Position numbers and translations under genes: made by a program
Source of the DNA: Rhodospirillales bacterium
GTDB lineage: Bacteria > Pseudomonadota > Alphaproteobacteria > Rhodospirillales > JAPHRK01
Length of the DNA: 64,000 nucleotides
Direction: 5' to 3'
Assembly: GCA_026196105.1 (NCBI GenBank)
Contig: JAPHRK010000036.1
Location: 1 to 64,000, forward strand
Notes under the pieces: model-generated
Seen by the model: the letters and a program-made list of their open reading frames with translations, nothing else
What the model was told of the DNA's origin: nothing
The model's database searches: none
Shown: piece by piece, positions 6,782 through 37,189 of the stretch
Numbering within the stretch: position 1 is the first letter of the stretch
Layout: each line of letters opens with the position of its first letter

Positions 6782-7255
6782 TTACATATTGTCGCAAAGT
6801 CGGGTCAAGAGCTCGAGGAGTTTTGCCTTATCTTCAGGGCCTAAAATCTCTGAAATACTATTATCTTGGCGTTCTACAAGGGGCTCAATATCTGCCATAA
6901 CTTTTTCGCCTTCTTCAGTCAGCATTAAAGCATAAGAACGACGATCGCTTGGAGAAGGACGTCGCTCAACAAAATTTGCTCCTTCTAACTTATCAATCAC
7001 GGCGACCATAGTTGATCGTTCAATACCAATCGCCCGAGATAATGCAGATTGTGTAAGGCCTGGATTCTTCCCAATTAGGGTTAAAACACCGTATTGTCCA
7101 GGTGTCACATAACGTTCAGCCAGAGTTTTTTGGAAGTCACTAAAAACAACAAATTGGGCTCGCCTGAGTTGGTAGCCAATAAGGTCTGGAAGTACCCCTT
7201 GGTCCAAGGGGGTGTCTTTAGCAGAATTTTTTACCTTTTTTTGACGCGGCAGCAT
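6782..7255 (-). CDS. MarR-family transcriptional regulator
   Basis: A 157-residue winged-helix regulator. Residues about 25-50 (LIGYQLRRAQFVVFSDFQKTL) form the dimer helix, followed by LTLIGKNPGLTQSALSRAIGIERSTMVAVIDKLEGANFVERRPSPSDRRSYALMLT split over the recognition helix and wing; the DRRSYAL wing motif is typical of MarR. Members usually repress a nearby operon and release DNA on binding an aromatic or other small ligand. The same-strand acyl-CoA ligase two genes upstream is a plausible target, as MarR proteins often control aromatic-acid activation, but no operator was identified. Confidence 0.92.
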   Translation of the reverse strand: MLPRQKKVKNSAKDTPLDQGVLPDLIGYQLRRAQFVVFSDFQKTLAERYVTPGQYGVLTLIGKNPGLTQSALSRAIGIERSTMVAVIDKLEGANFVERRPSPSDRRSYALMLTEEGEKVMADIEPLVERQDNSISEILGPEDKAKLLELLTRLCDNM

Positions 7256-28870: not shown

Positions 28871-30721
28871 ATGAGACAATTTGATCGAACACCAGAGCAT
28901 AAAGGTCCACGCAATGACCTTAAAACAATTCGCTCTCTTTTACCCTATCTGTGGCCCAAGAATGCTCTTGAGTTGCGGGTGCGAGTTGTTATTGCCCTTT
29001 TATTGCTGGTTGCTTCAAAGGCGGTCAATGTTGTTGTCCCTCTATTTTATAAAGAAGCCGTTGATATTCTCGGCGGAGACAAAGCGGCTGTAGTCGTTGT
29101 GCCGATTGCCTTGCTAATTGGTTACGGCATAGCACGGACTCTTGCTTTGGCTTTTGGTGAATGGCGAGATGCGGTTTTTGCCAAGGTAGCACAACGAGCG
29201 ATCCGAACAGTTGCTTTAAAAACCTTCCGGCATCTCCATGCTCTTTCCATGCGCTTTCACCTGGAGCGGCAAACAGGAGGAGTCTCTAGGGCTATTGAGC
29301 GTGGTACCTCTGGGATAGACTTCCTGCTGAACTTTATGTTGTTTAGTGTATTGCCAACCTTGCTGGAAATCGGTCTGGTCAGCGCTATTTTATGGAACCT
29401 TTACGGGTTTAGTTATGCCTTCGTCACTTTTGCCACCATTGTTGGTTATATTGTTTGGACACTGGCGATTACTGAATGGCGAATTAAATATCGCCGGGCG
29501 ATGAACGAGACTGACTCAAAGGCGAACACTAAAGCCATCGACTCTTTGCTCAACTTCGAAACTGTTAAGTATTTTAGTAATGAAGAACATGAAGCTAGGC
29601 GATATGATGACTCGCTAATTGCTTATGAATCTGCTGCGATTAAAAGTAAAACCACCCTCTCAACCCTTAATATTGGCCAATCAGTAATTATCTCCTTAGG
29701 GGTAATTATCTTGATGATTATGGCAGGAAATGGCGTGGTAGCTGGGACCATGACGGTGGGTGATTTTGTTTTGGTAAACAGCTACCTGATCCAATTGTTC
29801 TTGCCGCTGACTTTCTTAGGTTTTGTTTATCGGGAAATTAAACGTTCTCTGACAGATATGGAATCCATGTTCCAGCTGTTGAACCAAAATGCCGAAATTG
29901 AAAACTCACCCGATGCAACTGAGCTTAAGATCGACGGTGGCGAGGTGGTTTTTGAGAATGTGGAATTTGGCTACGATCCTCGACGACCTATTCTTAAAGG
30001 TGTCTCTTTCTCTGTTCCTGCCGGTAAAACCATAGCTATTGTTGGGTCAACAGGTGCTGGAAAATCGACCATATCGCGGTTGCTTTTCCGCTTCTATGAT
30101 ATTGGCGGAGGCAAAGTTACCATTGATGGACAAGATCTACGCGAGGTGACACAAAAGTCCCTTCGAGCTGCCATCGGGATCGTACCGCAAGACACCGTTT
30201 TGTTTAACGATACGATCTATTACAACATTGCTTATGGTCGTCCTACCGCGACCAAAGAGGAGGTTGAGCGGGCTGCTGATCTTGCTCGCATTCATGACTT
30301 TGTCGTTGGCCTTCCGGATGGTTATGAGACCTCAGTTGGTGAGCGTGGCTTAAAGCTCTCAGGTGGTGAAAAACAACGAGTAGCGATTGCGCGCACCATC
30401 CTCAAAAATCCAAATATCTTACTTTTTGATGAGGCGACCTCTGCTCTTGATAGTAAGACAGAAAAAGAAATCCAACAGTCTCTTGATGAGGTCTCTTCAG
30501 GGCGTACAACCATTATCATTGCCCACCGCCTATCTACTGTCGTTGATGCTGATGAGATATTAGTGCTGGACGAGGGGCGAATTGTTGAACGTGGTAATCA
30601 CCAAGAACTCTTGGCACTCAATGCTCGCTACGCGGATGCTTGGCAACGTCAGCAAGAAACAGCGAAAGCTAGAGATGTGTTAGAGAAGGTGGAAAAAGAA
30701 GCTATCTTAGTGGCGGAGTAA
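28871..30721 (+). CDS. Atm1-type ABC exporter (ABCB7/HMT1 family)
   Basis: A half-transporter of 616 residues with six transmembrane helices (about 40-330) fused to an ATPase domain. The NBD has Walker A GSTGAGKST (about 393), Q-loop IGIVPQDTVLFND, signature LSGGEKQRVAIA, Walker B ILLFDEATSALD and switch His AHRLST. The membrane part (YKEAVDILGG, HLERQTGGVSRAIERG) matches Atm1 proteins, which export glutathione-linked sulfur or metal species and support Fe-S and heavy-metal homeostasis. The ATG used follows CGGTGA; an in-frame GTG sits 6 bases upstream. Confidence 0.93.
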   Translation: MRQFDRTPEHKGPRNDLKTIRSLLPYLWPKNALELRVRVVIALLLLVASKAVNVVVPLFYKEAVDILGGDKAAVVVVPIALLIGYGIARTLALAFGEWRDAVFAKVAQRAIRTVALKTFRHLHALSMRFHLERQTGGVSRAIERGTSGIDFLLNFMLFSVLPTLLEIGLVSAILWNLYGFSYAFVTFATIVGYIVWTLAITEWRIKYRRAMNETDSKANTKAIDSLLNFETVKYFSNEEHEARRYDDSLIAYESAAIKSKTTLSTLNIGQSVIISLGVIILMIMAGNGVVAGTMTVGDFVLVNSYLIQLFLPLTFLGFVYREIKRSLTDMESMFQLLNQNAEIENSPDATELKIDGGEVVFENVEFGYDPRRPILKGVSFSVPAGKTIAIVGSTGAGKSTISRLLFRFYDIGGGKVTIDGQDLREVTQKSLRAAIGIVPQDTVLFNDTIYYNIAYGRPTATKEEVERAADLARIHDFVVGLPDGYETSVGERGLKLSGGEKQRVAIARTILKNPNILLFDEATSALDSKTEKEIQQSLDEVSSGRTTIIIAHRLSTVVDADEILVLDEGRIVERGNHQELLALNARYADAWQRQQETAKARDVLEKVEKEAILVAE

Positions 30722-30774
30722 GTTCTATGCCATATATGCGATTATTTTACTGGGACGAGTTCTAAAAATTAGGT

Positions 30775-31119
30775 ATGAAAATGAAAGTTTACGGATTGCA
30801 GAATTGTGATACTTGCCGCAAAGCAAAAAAATGGCTGGAAGCCGAAGCTATTGACTTTGAGTTTCTAGACCTTCGCAAATCTCCAGTTGATGCTGAAACA
30901 CTGAAGGATTGGCTTTCTTCTCTTGGAGCGGATCGCCTGGTAAATCGACGAGGAACAACTTGGCGCGGCCTTTCTGACGTGCAGAAAGGCGCTGAAGGCG
31001 ACGCCCTTGTTGCATTACTGCTTGCTCAACCCGCCATCATGAAACGCCCCATCTTCCTGACCCACAACGGTGTTTCTGTAGGTTTCGATGACAAGCAAAA
31101 GCAAGCATTGGTAAATTGA
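30775..31119 (+). CDS. ArsC/Spx-family thioredoxin-fold protein (YffB-like)
   Basis: A 114-residue protein of the arsenate reductase/Spx superfamily: VYGLQNCDTCRKAKKWLEAE with a CxxC-type active site, FEFLDLRKSPVD, and the VNRRGTTWRGL and KRPIFL motifs characteristic of the YffB branch. YffB members are probably glutathione-dependent thiol reductases rather than true arsenate reductases. A second ATG two codons later (30781) is possible. The C-terminus converges on the degraded Crp-like gene. Confidence 0.9.
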   Translation: MKMKVYGLQNCDTCRKAKKWLEAEAIDFEFLDLRKSPVDAETLKDWLSSLGADRLVNRRGTTWRGLSDVQKGAEGDALVALLLAQPAIMKRPIFLTHNGVSVGFDDKQKQALVN

Positions 31120-31135
31120 ACTTATTCAGCTTTCT

Positions 31136-31556
31136 TCATGGGACAAGTATTGATGCCAGGTAGTTGGTAAGGAAGGCACCAAATACAAAAATTTGAAACT
31201 CCTGAGAACTTTTAAGTAAATTTGTAAAAGTTGAGGCAGGTAAAGATATGGCTTTAACCGCGCTTTCGGTTACACCTTCTGCGCTGTAGCCTTCTCCATT
31301 TAACAAGCAAGATGTTGTGAGGATACAGGTGTCACCACCATTGACTCTGTACAGAACAATTTCCCGTCCATTTGCTGCAACCTTTTGTACACGGACACAG
31401 CCCTCAATAACAAAAAGGTAATTTTGACATTGGTCACCACTGTGAAAGATTGTCATACCCGCTGGGATTTCGACAACAGAGGCATCCGTTACTAGCTTTT
31501 TCTTGGGTTTTGGGGTCGAGTTTGTTTAATCCTGGAAACCCCTTAATCCATTCCAT
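31136..31556 (-). pseudogene. Crp/Fnr-family regulator, frameshifted and lacking its HTH domain
   Basis: The intact frame starts at an ATG at 31556 with AAGGA 8 bases upstream and reads MEWIKGFPGLNKLDPKTQEK. At a run of five A on the minus strand (31497-31501) the frame is lost. Removing one A joins it to LVTDASVVEIPAGMTIFHSGDQ, a normal cyclic-nucleotide-binding fold (HSGDQCQNYLFVIEGCVRVQK), which continues to LASILVP and a stop. The C-terminal winged-helix expected in Crp/Fnr regulators (about 70-80 more residues) is absent; the stop is 16 bases from the convergent ArsC-like gene. Either a decaying gene or a stand-alone sensor domain with a sequencing error in the homopolymer. It lies 45 bases after the Sel1 gene on the same strand. 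Confidence 0.75.
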
Positions 31557-31601
31557 CGCTTTGTCCTTCTCGAAAATCTTCTGGAAGTTTAAGGGGCAAT
31601 G

Positions 31602-32282
31602 CTATTTTGGTTCTAGCATAGCCTGGGCCATGGTTTCAGCTTTAGATATTTCGTCACTAATCATGCCTTCTTTCACCGTCTCTAAAACTGGAGGAGAAAC
31701 CAAGGCACCATTTCCTTCGGCTATGATTAGCCATTTAAGAGCTTGGGTTTTATCAAGCTCTACTCCGTCACCTCTGGCATAAAGCATAGCGAGGTTGATA
31801 GCAGCCTGGGTGTGCTTAGATTCGGCAGCTTTTTCGTACCAATGTGCTGCTTGTTTTTTGTCCATTGCCGCCCCATTGCCTGTTTCGCACATCAAGGCGT
31901 AATTATATTGAGCTGGGGTTAAGCCACCTTGGGCAGCTTTAAGAAACCATCCAGCGGCAATTTCAGCGTTTTGTGGGACACCGATGCCCGTATAAGAGGC
32001 TAGAGCTAGTTTATACTGGGATTGAGTATGACCTTGCTCTGCCGCAGCTTTGTACCATTTGAAGGCAAGTTGTAGGTTTGCCGGGCCACGGAGACCTTGT
32101 TCATATTGCAGGCCCAAGAAAAATTGAGCTTGAGGATTGCCAGCTTTGGCGGCGTTTAGGTACCAGTTGAAGGCTTTGTCGTAGCTATTTGGTATTTGTG
32201 CGAAGGTTGGCGCACTCAACAAAAGCATCACACCACAGGCGATGGTAGACAAACTCCAAACTGTTTTTCTTTGATCCCACAT
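31602..32282 (-). CDS. Secreted Sel1-repeat protein, 226 aa
   Basis: Signal peptide (about residues 1-28, ending APTFAQ) followed by four or five Sel1 repeats with the AFKWYKAAAEQGHTQSQYKLALASYTGIGV type pattern spread over residues 35-195. Periplasmic protein-interaction scaffold; partner unknown. The last repeat is followed by about 30 unrelated residues. Probably cotranscribed with the Crp-like remnant downstream. Confidence 0.87.
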   Translation of the reverse strand: MWDQRKTVWSLSTIACGVMLLLSAPTFAQIPNSYDKAFNWYLNAAKAGNPQAQFFLGLQYEQGLRGPANLQLAFKWYKAAAEQGHTQSQYKLALASYTGIGVPQNAEIAAGWFLKAAQGGLTPAQYNYALMCETGNGAAMDKKQAAHWYEKAAESKHTQAAINLAMLYARGDGVELDKTQALKWLIIAEGNGALVSPPVLETVKEGMISDEISKAETMAQAMLEPK

Positions 32283-32358
32283 AGGATGACTTTAAACCTG
32301 CTTTAGTCCCTTGTGAACAGGCAATCTATTCTTACTAGGCAGAATCTTCCTAAAAACG

Positions 32359-32592
32359 TTAGTTATCTTCTTCTGGTGGGGCAGAACGGGTGGGAGAGGG
32401 GCCAAAGTAATTAACCAAACGGCGTTTGTCCCGGTGATAGGGTTCTTCATAGCATTCAACCCCAGCAAGGGACTTGTAACAATAGGTTGGTTCAAAGTCA
32501 GAAACAGATTTTTCATATTCTGAAACATACCCGCAGGCACTGGTTAACAGAATGACGGGGAGAAAAAATAAAGATTTCCACATAATTTTCAA
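32359..32592 (-). CDS. Small lipoprotein with YCYKSLAGVECY motif
   Basis: A 77-residue lipoprotein: hydrophobic signal (SLFFLPVILLTSAC) with lipobox LTSAC at residues 16-20, then YCYKSLAGVECYEEPYHRDKRRLVNYFGPSP, a short conserved-looking segment with two Cys that could form a disulfide. I recall similar small lipoproteins in other Rhodospirillales, all of unknown function. It is upstream of the Sel1 gene on the same strand, separated by 76 bases. Confidence 0.75.
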   Translation of the reverse strand: MKIMWKSLFFLPVILLTSACGYVSEYEKSVSDFEPTYCYKSLAGVECYEEPYHRDKRRLVNYFGPSPTRSAPPEEDN

Positions 32593-32754
32593 TACTCCGG
32601 GACCATGACTGGGCAGTATCTACCTAGAAAACTACCAATTACCCAAGGTATTTGCAATTTAGAGACCAGTTTGTGTGTTGAAATAGTACAACTTGACTCG
32701 TCTCCTCCCCTCCTCGAAAATGGCGTTGCCTAACCACATTAAAGAAATAAATAA

Positions 32755-36399: not shown

Positions 36400-36539
36400 T
36401 TTGTGACCTCTGCTTTTTGAGTTGTAAGTCTGGAGTGCAGATATTTGCCATAGATATAGCTTTGACCGCTCCGATGGAGACGTGTTTGGCAAAATTTTTT
36501 GCGGCCAAATTATTAGTCTTTCCAGCTTTTAGCGCTGGG

Positions 36540-36567
36540 ACCGCCTCCACTCGATTATGGAGGCGGT
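36540..36567 (-). terminator. Hairpin downstream of the cold-shock gene
   Basis: ACCGCCTCCA and TGGAGGCGGT make a perfect 10-bp stem with an eight-base loop, 12 bases beyond the csp stop. On the minus strand it is followed by another small hairpin (CCAGC...GCTGG) rather than a T-run, so termination is likely but not classical. Confidence 0.6.
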
Positions 36568-36579
36568 GCTTTCGATAGC

Positions 36580-36789
36580 TTAATCAGCGATAGAAAGGTT
36601 TTCGGCTGATGACTTGCCGTTATTTCCTTGCTGAAGCTCGTAGGAAACTTTTTGTCCTTCATTCAATGAACTCAATCCAGCGCGTTCAACAGCAGAAATG
36701 TGAACAAACGCATCGCTTGAGCCATCATTAGGTTCAATGAAGCCAAAACCTTTGGTTGGGTTGAACCATTTTACAGTACCAGTAGCCAT
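36580..36789 (-). CDS. CspA-family cold-shock protein
   Basis: A 69-residue single cold-shock domain that binds single-stranded RNA or DNA and melts mRNA structure. RNP1 (KGFGFIEP) and RNP2 (DAFVHIS) are both intact, and the opening MATGTVKWFNPTKGFGF is standard. Preceded by a well-formed promoter and an untranslated leader of about 140 nt, as in cold-regulated csp genes. Confidence 0.97.
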   Translation of the reverse strand: MATGTVKWFNPTKGFGFIEPNDGSSDAFVHISAVERAGLSSLNEGQKVSYELQQGNNGKSSAENLSIAD

Positions 36790-36967
36790 AGTTATTTTTC
36801 CTTCTAACAGGCATGATAATTTAGCGCCTCACACAATGTAATGGCGCGGTTATTTAACGATCACAATGTCAGGGGATAACTAAGCTAAACAGCGTACCGG
36901 TCATTTAGGTAAGCCAAAACAAATGTAGAACGTGAGCCCATATAATCGGTATTGCTTAAAAAGTCAA
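36790..36967 (-). promoter_or_regulatory. Promoter and long 5' leader of the cold-shock gene
   Basis: On the minus strand TTGACT (36962-36967) and TATATG (36939-36944) are exactly 17 bases apart. A start near 36932 leaves about 140 nt of leader before the csp ATG. Long leaders of this kind act as RNA thermosensors in cspA genes. The next 220 bp to the oxygenase gene (36968-37189) are extremely AT-rich and contain no gene I can support. Confidence 0.55.
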
Positions 36968-37189
36968 TATTTATCTGAAATATAAACTCGAATATCGTAT
37001 ATACAAACATCAAACTAAATGCTGGTTTTGATAGAATTGGTAATTAGTAATAGTGTATGATTTATTTGGAATAATATTCATATAATATTTCCTAATAAGA
37101 AAACTTTATTTATTTTTAATTTCAACATTAAATAATTCAATCCTATCTAAATAGCTTGAATGAGCGTATAGCCTCATGACGCACACATT

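Follow-up and report, generated by a model that had tools for sequence, protein, structure and literature searches.

Does the Crp/Fnr-like gene on the minus strand at positions 31556 to 31136 of a 64,000-nucleotide stretch of Rhodospirillales DNA still encode a regulator? In the reading frames of the whole 64-kb stretch that was analysed (here called the window), the gene is spread over two frames, and a first-pass annotation had left three options for it: a pseudogene, a sequencing error, or a slippage product consisting of the cyclic nucleotide-binding (CNB) domain only. The locus contains the following features:

31602 to 32282, minus strand: open gene for a Sel1-repeat protein, upstream of the Crp/Fnr gene on the same strand (PF08238, E = 2.6e-35)
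31564 to 31570, minus strand: Shine-Dalgarno-like AGAAGGA, 7 nt 5' of the ATG at 31556 (read by eye from the sequence)
31497 to 31556, minus strand: first 20 codons of the Crp/Fnr gene, read from the ATG at 31556 in the upstream frame (N-terminal piece, assigned by profile score)
31497 to 31501 (plus-strand coordinates), minus strand: A5 run, the site of the frame switch (from the profile placement of both pieces)
31139 to 31495, minus strand: remaining CNB domain in the shifted frame, within a 129-codon open frame whose first ATG, GTG, or TTG is the ATG at 31456
31136 to 31456, minus strand: longest startable open reading frame (ORF) of the shifted frame, 106 amino acids from the internal ATG, stop included, without the first part of the domain
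31136 to 31195, minus strand: degenerate end, where R88, R98, and L102, near-invariant in relatives, are changed and homology fades before the stop
30775 to 31119, plus strand: convergent gene of the ArsC/Spx type, which its family model shows to be full length (PF03960, E = 1.7e-17; TIGR01617, 98.3 bits against a cut-off of 75.05, positions 1 to 113 of 117)

The 20 codons that follow the upstream ATG encode MEWIKGFPGLNKLDPKTQEK and end at the A5 run. On a profile of 96 relatives, this piece scored 29.8 (the relatives' median being 27.2), a score reached by 0 of 5,000 shuffles, and columns 1 to 20 were its best placement. The 13 residues preceding the internal ATG at 31456, which lie in a different frame from the 20-amino-acid piece, score in columns 21 to 33, again with no shuffle among 5,000 equalling the score. 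Since the two pieces occupy adjoining profile columns, a real homology has been split here without residue loss. The earlier proposals of a homopolymer (A5) frameshift after a good start and 20 codons, and of joined pieces that read as one natural protein, are thus borne out by the profile scores, the exact spacing, and homology that runs through columns 1 to 33 with no gap. The uninterrupted single reading frame of a Crp/Fnr regulator is absent, with the frame changing at the A5 run. Translation from the upstream ATG would yield a 40-amino-acid peptide with only 20 native residues, and a start at the internal ATG would yield a CNB domain that lacks its beginning and is joined to no DNA-binding domain.

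The 106-amino-acid ORF matches PF00027 (E = 1.8e-12; 47.5 bits against a gathering score of 27.5; profile positions 9 to 88 of 89). The locus therefore carries the CNB-type domain of Crp/Fnr regulators, the first part of which sits in another frame, and the 129-codon CNB frame is free of stops up to its terminal one at 31136 to 31138. In residues 2 to 85 of the window piece, all 25 near-invariant positions (at least 90% conserved in the 96 relatives) are kept, and 55 of the 96 relatives retain all their own near-invariant core positions. In residues 86 to 104, three of six such positions are lost (R88, R98, and L102), the maximum loss there among relatives being two. All three losses among the 31 near-invariant positions fall in the last six (Fisher p = 0.004, on small numbers). 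Over residues 2 to 95, the window copy retains 28 of 29 near-invariant positions, with the same or a lower share in 48 of the 96 relatives, and only three of the 97 terminal branches in the CNB tree are longer than its own. Because one alignment requires an extra residue at the end of the window piece, the terminal losses may be part of the junction of a deletion itself. Uniform decay should also strike the core, so either the gene was lost recently or selection still acts on the core; an intact core with a lost end fits both, the sole available genome of the family being the window's own.

The DNA-binding half is missing. No residues follow the CNB match in the window copy, compared with 78 to 95 residues in all 111 ortholog loci, and only 16 bp separate the CNB stop from the stop of the ArsC-like gene (31117 to 31119), so that no space is left for an HTH after the CNB domain. 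The C-terminal winged HTH of Crp/Fnr regulators (HTH_Crp_2, PF13545) is accordingly absent from the locus, as had been stated in the first-pass annotation, which had also suggested looking for a matching HTH fragment elsewhere. A search of the window's own 3.9-Mb genome with the HTH of the relative L003 (E up to 10) found no displaced HTH: it returned five matches, every one within an open frame of at least 217 amino acids, and the best was an intact 217-amino-acid paralogue on contig 25 whose CNB domain is 30% identical. PF13545 gave 41 matches at E up to 1, of which those above the cut-off are other regulators; contig C8 holds one match alone (6959 to 7060), far from this gene. As neither search yielded a fragment, relocation of the HTH within the genome was rejected.

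We then compared the window copy with its relatives. At E up to 1e-20, 103 of the 317 genomes searched in the order contain the gene, the window's own among them. In other genomes there were 103 matches at this threshold (two in one genome), with N-termini read for part of the set; in 100 of them the open frame reaches 217 amino acids or more, compared with 129 here, and the three short ones (162, 163, and 166 amino acids) have an HTH directly downstream in a shifted frame. Ortholog loci were pooled from sets of 7, 80, and 24 to give 111, leaving out the window's own copy (L001), the paralogue loci (L002, L010, L022, and L030), and L011 to L021, which are weak matches (20 to 38% identity) to other regulators. 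Removal of identical open frames, some of them shared by two collections, left 96 relatives. CNB identity to the window copy ranges from 48 to 61% across the 111 loci. An HTH is present in all 111, of which 94 fit the recognition-helix pattern and the other 17 share the REV(I/V)SRQL helix but differ in the residue that follows. The N-terminal stretch lies in the CNB frame in 96 of 96 distinct relatives, with 33 or more residues up to this point read in a single frame; six relatives fall below zero on the N-terminal profile, and individually these proved to be in-frame length or sequence variants with no frame breaks. On the suggested comparison of length and frame in relatives, none of the 111 loci shares the short C-terminus, and all 96 distinct frames are unbroken over the N-terminal stretch. 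No CNB-only relative was found among the 111 loci (96 distinct frames). Stand-alone CNB-domain proteins, which are in-frame genes, likewise have the domain without an HTH, but there is no such protein among these loci of the subfamily.

Frame changes were also observed in three other genomes of the order (L143, near position 2175; L144, at about 2214 to 2226; and L145, at about 621), where, through either error or decay, the regulator's CNB and HTH frames differ at or near short homopolymers. The sequence contains N in each case; L145, whose HTH is also interrupted by a stop and whose sequence is rich in N, may be decaying or badly sequenced. These copies share with the window copy a CNB frame that ends early (open frames of 162 to 166 amino acids), but they retain the HTH directly afterward in another frame (with a stop as well in L145), whereas the window copy has no HTH.

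A second difference concerns the gene's usual partner. In 79 of the 111 loci (65 of the 96 distinct frames), the 240 bp downstream contain, on the same strand, the start of a DUF2892 (YgaP-like, PF11127) gene; 82 loci have one no more than 3 kb away on one side or the other, and in 29 none was found. These counts come from searches with two queries (E = 1e-3) and could be too low. Four of the 111 loci end within 500 bp, two of them without a DUF2892 match. No DUF2892 gene was found at the window locus, where one was likely present formerly; this is not certain, because 29 of the 111 loci have none near the gene. Crp/Fnr regulators beside DUF2892/YgaP-like genes (e.g., L113 of Terasakiella brassicae, L080 of Magnetospirillum fulvum, and L003) have in common with the window copy the CNB domain, an alignable N-terminus, and the cysteines described below, but all 111 have the HTH and 79 have DUF2892 just downstream, whereas the window copy has neither and carries a frame break in addition. 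The protein type is not wholly lost from the genome, since contig 74 (L168, 1130 to 1698) bears an ArsR-type regulator overlapping a 66-amino-acid DUF2892 gene, the genome's only DUF2892 match above the cut-off, which we take to be a ygaVP-like arrangement.

In the window, the ArsC/Spx-like gene stands where relatives carry the HTH and the downstream gene. In 19 regions surrounding ArsC-like genes from other genomes (about 1.5 kb to either side, in some cases less), nothing matched the window's ABC, CNB, Sel1, or HisP proteins or a DUF2892 protein at E = 1e-4, and with no shared neighbours the junction is not datable from the ArsC side. A transposon or repeat at the junction was rejected, as positions 30600 to 32700 hold only short, chance-like repeats of 10 to 16 nt. 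In a scan of 30700 to 32700, promoter-like sites (5, compared with 2.7 in shuffles) and terminator-like sites (1, compared with 2.5) were not telling. No Rfam family scored above its gathering score in the window, including the largest gap (697 bp; 36493 to 37189) between the chosen ORFs of at least 75 amino acids.

Taken with these comparisons, the locus probably represents a recently inactivated Crp/Fnr-type regulator gene, that is, a pseudogene remnant: intact homologues exist in relatives, and disabling lesions are found here. This reading is the best supported because the gene has two lesions (both known from one genome), no relative in 111 loci has the same short form, and the usual downstream gene is gone. 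The 3' part, coding for the HTH and the last section of the dimerisation helix, would have been lost together with the small DUF2892 membrane-protein gene. A single deletion would be the simplest account, and it would have moved the convergent ArsC-like gene to within 16 bp. The frame change in the A5 run near the start would be a second lesion, in whichever order the two arose, and the remnant presumably gives no functional product. It is most likely an ordinary sort of dead gene and no new type of protein.

The A5 break might instead be a sequencing or assembly error, the real gene then being an in-frame truncated CNB-only ORF of about 139 amino acids, working or not. The adjoining pieces with their exact spacing, the position of the break within a homopolymer, the frame changes in this gene in the three other genomes of the order (each at or near a short homopolymer and in a sequence containing N), and the 25 of 25 conserved core positions would all fit such an error, but it would leave the missing HTH unexplained and would restore only a truncated ORF, not an intact regulator. 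Five A residues also make a short run for most sequencing errors. Moreover, when 20 other window proteins were compared with NCBIfam (scans at E = 1e-60 and E = 1e-20), 12 scored above a model cut-off, each covering at least about 89% of its best such model (the other 8, with no model above the cut-off, being uninformative); the assembly is therefore not full of frame errors. We consider this explanation unlikely. An artefact of another kind, in which two separate parts of the genome were wrongly joined within the gene and an intact gene exists unassembled, is conceivable for a draft genome of 82 contigs, where the end of a gene like this might be lost between contigs. However, the 3.9-Mb assembly, estimated to be 99% complete, yielded no HTH close to this subfamily, the site is internal to its contig, and the surrounding repeats are only short and chance-like (10 to 16 nt), so that a misassembly seems extremely improbable.

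The intact core, with losses only at an end that a CNB-only protein could dispense with (the same Fisher p of 0.004), can also be taken as the mark of a working CNB-only protein. Such a protein would arise from slippage at GAA AAA G, with tRNA-Lys shifting from AAA to AAG, or from a start at the internal ATG, and it would sense a ligand or thiol and act on another protein, perhaps by partnering a Crp/Fnr paralogue. By codon reasoning, AAA_G would permit +1 re-pairing of the tRNA in principle. Against this, the CNB-only form occurs in 0 of 111 loci, the N-terminal stretch stays in one frame in each of the 96 distinct relatives, the tail losses are equally explicable as a deletion junction, and the dimerisation helix is mostly missing. 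Inspection of the site by eye found neither a Shine-Dalgarno-plus-stop stimulator nor a long slippery run, and A5 is shorter than the runs known to us for transcriptional slippage. Such a product is highly improbable, and programmed frameshifting as the leading reading was rejected, the frame change being conserved in 0 of 96 distinct relatives. A scenario in which the regulator has turned into a CNB-only sensor, having lost the HTH and DUF2892 while its domain stayed under selection, with low-level +1 slippage on AAA_G (or a reading error) and modulation of another protein, is a long shot at best. Among the three options originally listed, the pseudogene is thus the one that the comparisons favor; a sequencing error fails to account for the absent HTH, and the slippage product finds no comparative support.

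In the subfamily to which the remnant belongs (orthologs L003 to L009 and L039 to L142), all 96 relatives have the cysteines at positions 44 and 50 (window-piece numbering), and 78 of 96 have a third, cysteine 10; all three are shared with the window copy. An MBL-fold gene, presumably ETHE1-like, lies within 3 kb in 11 of the 111 ortholog loci. The subfamily may be a thiol or sulfur-stress regulator. Literature on Crp/Fnr proteins with DUF2892, YgaP, persulfide, and Fnr-type pseudogenes or frameshifts, judged at the level of listings, contained nothing on this subfamily; one table row in a study of B. diazoefficiens NnrR names a DUF2892 gene (PMC6710368).

For annotation, the pseudogene reading means that the remnant does not belong in a count of working regulators, and this Crp/DUF2892 unit is probably missing from the strain. 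If the CNB core were truly under selection, the locus would offer a natural example of how a transcription factor loses its DNA-binding half.
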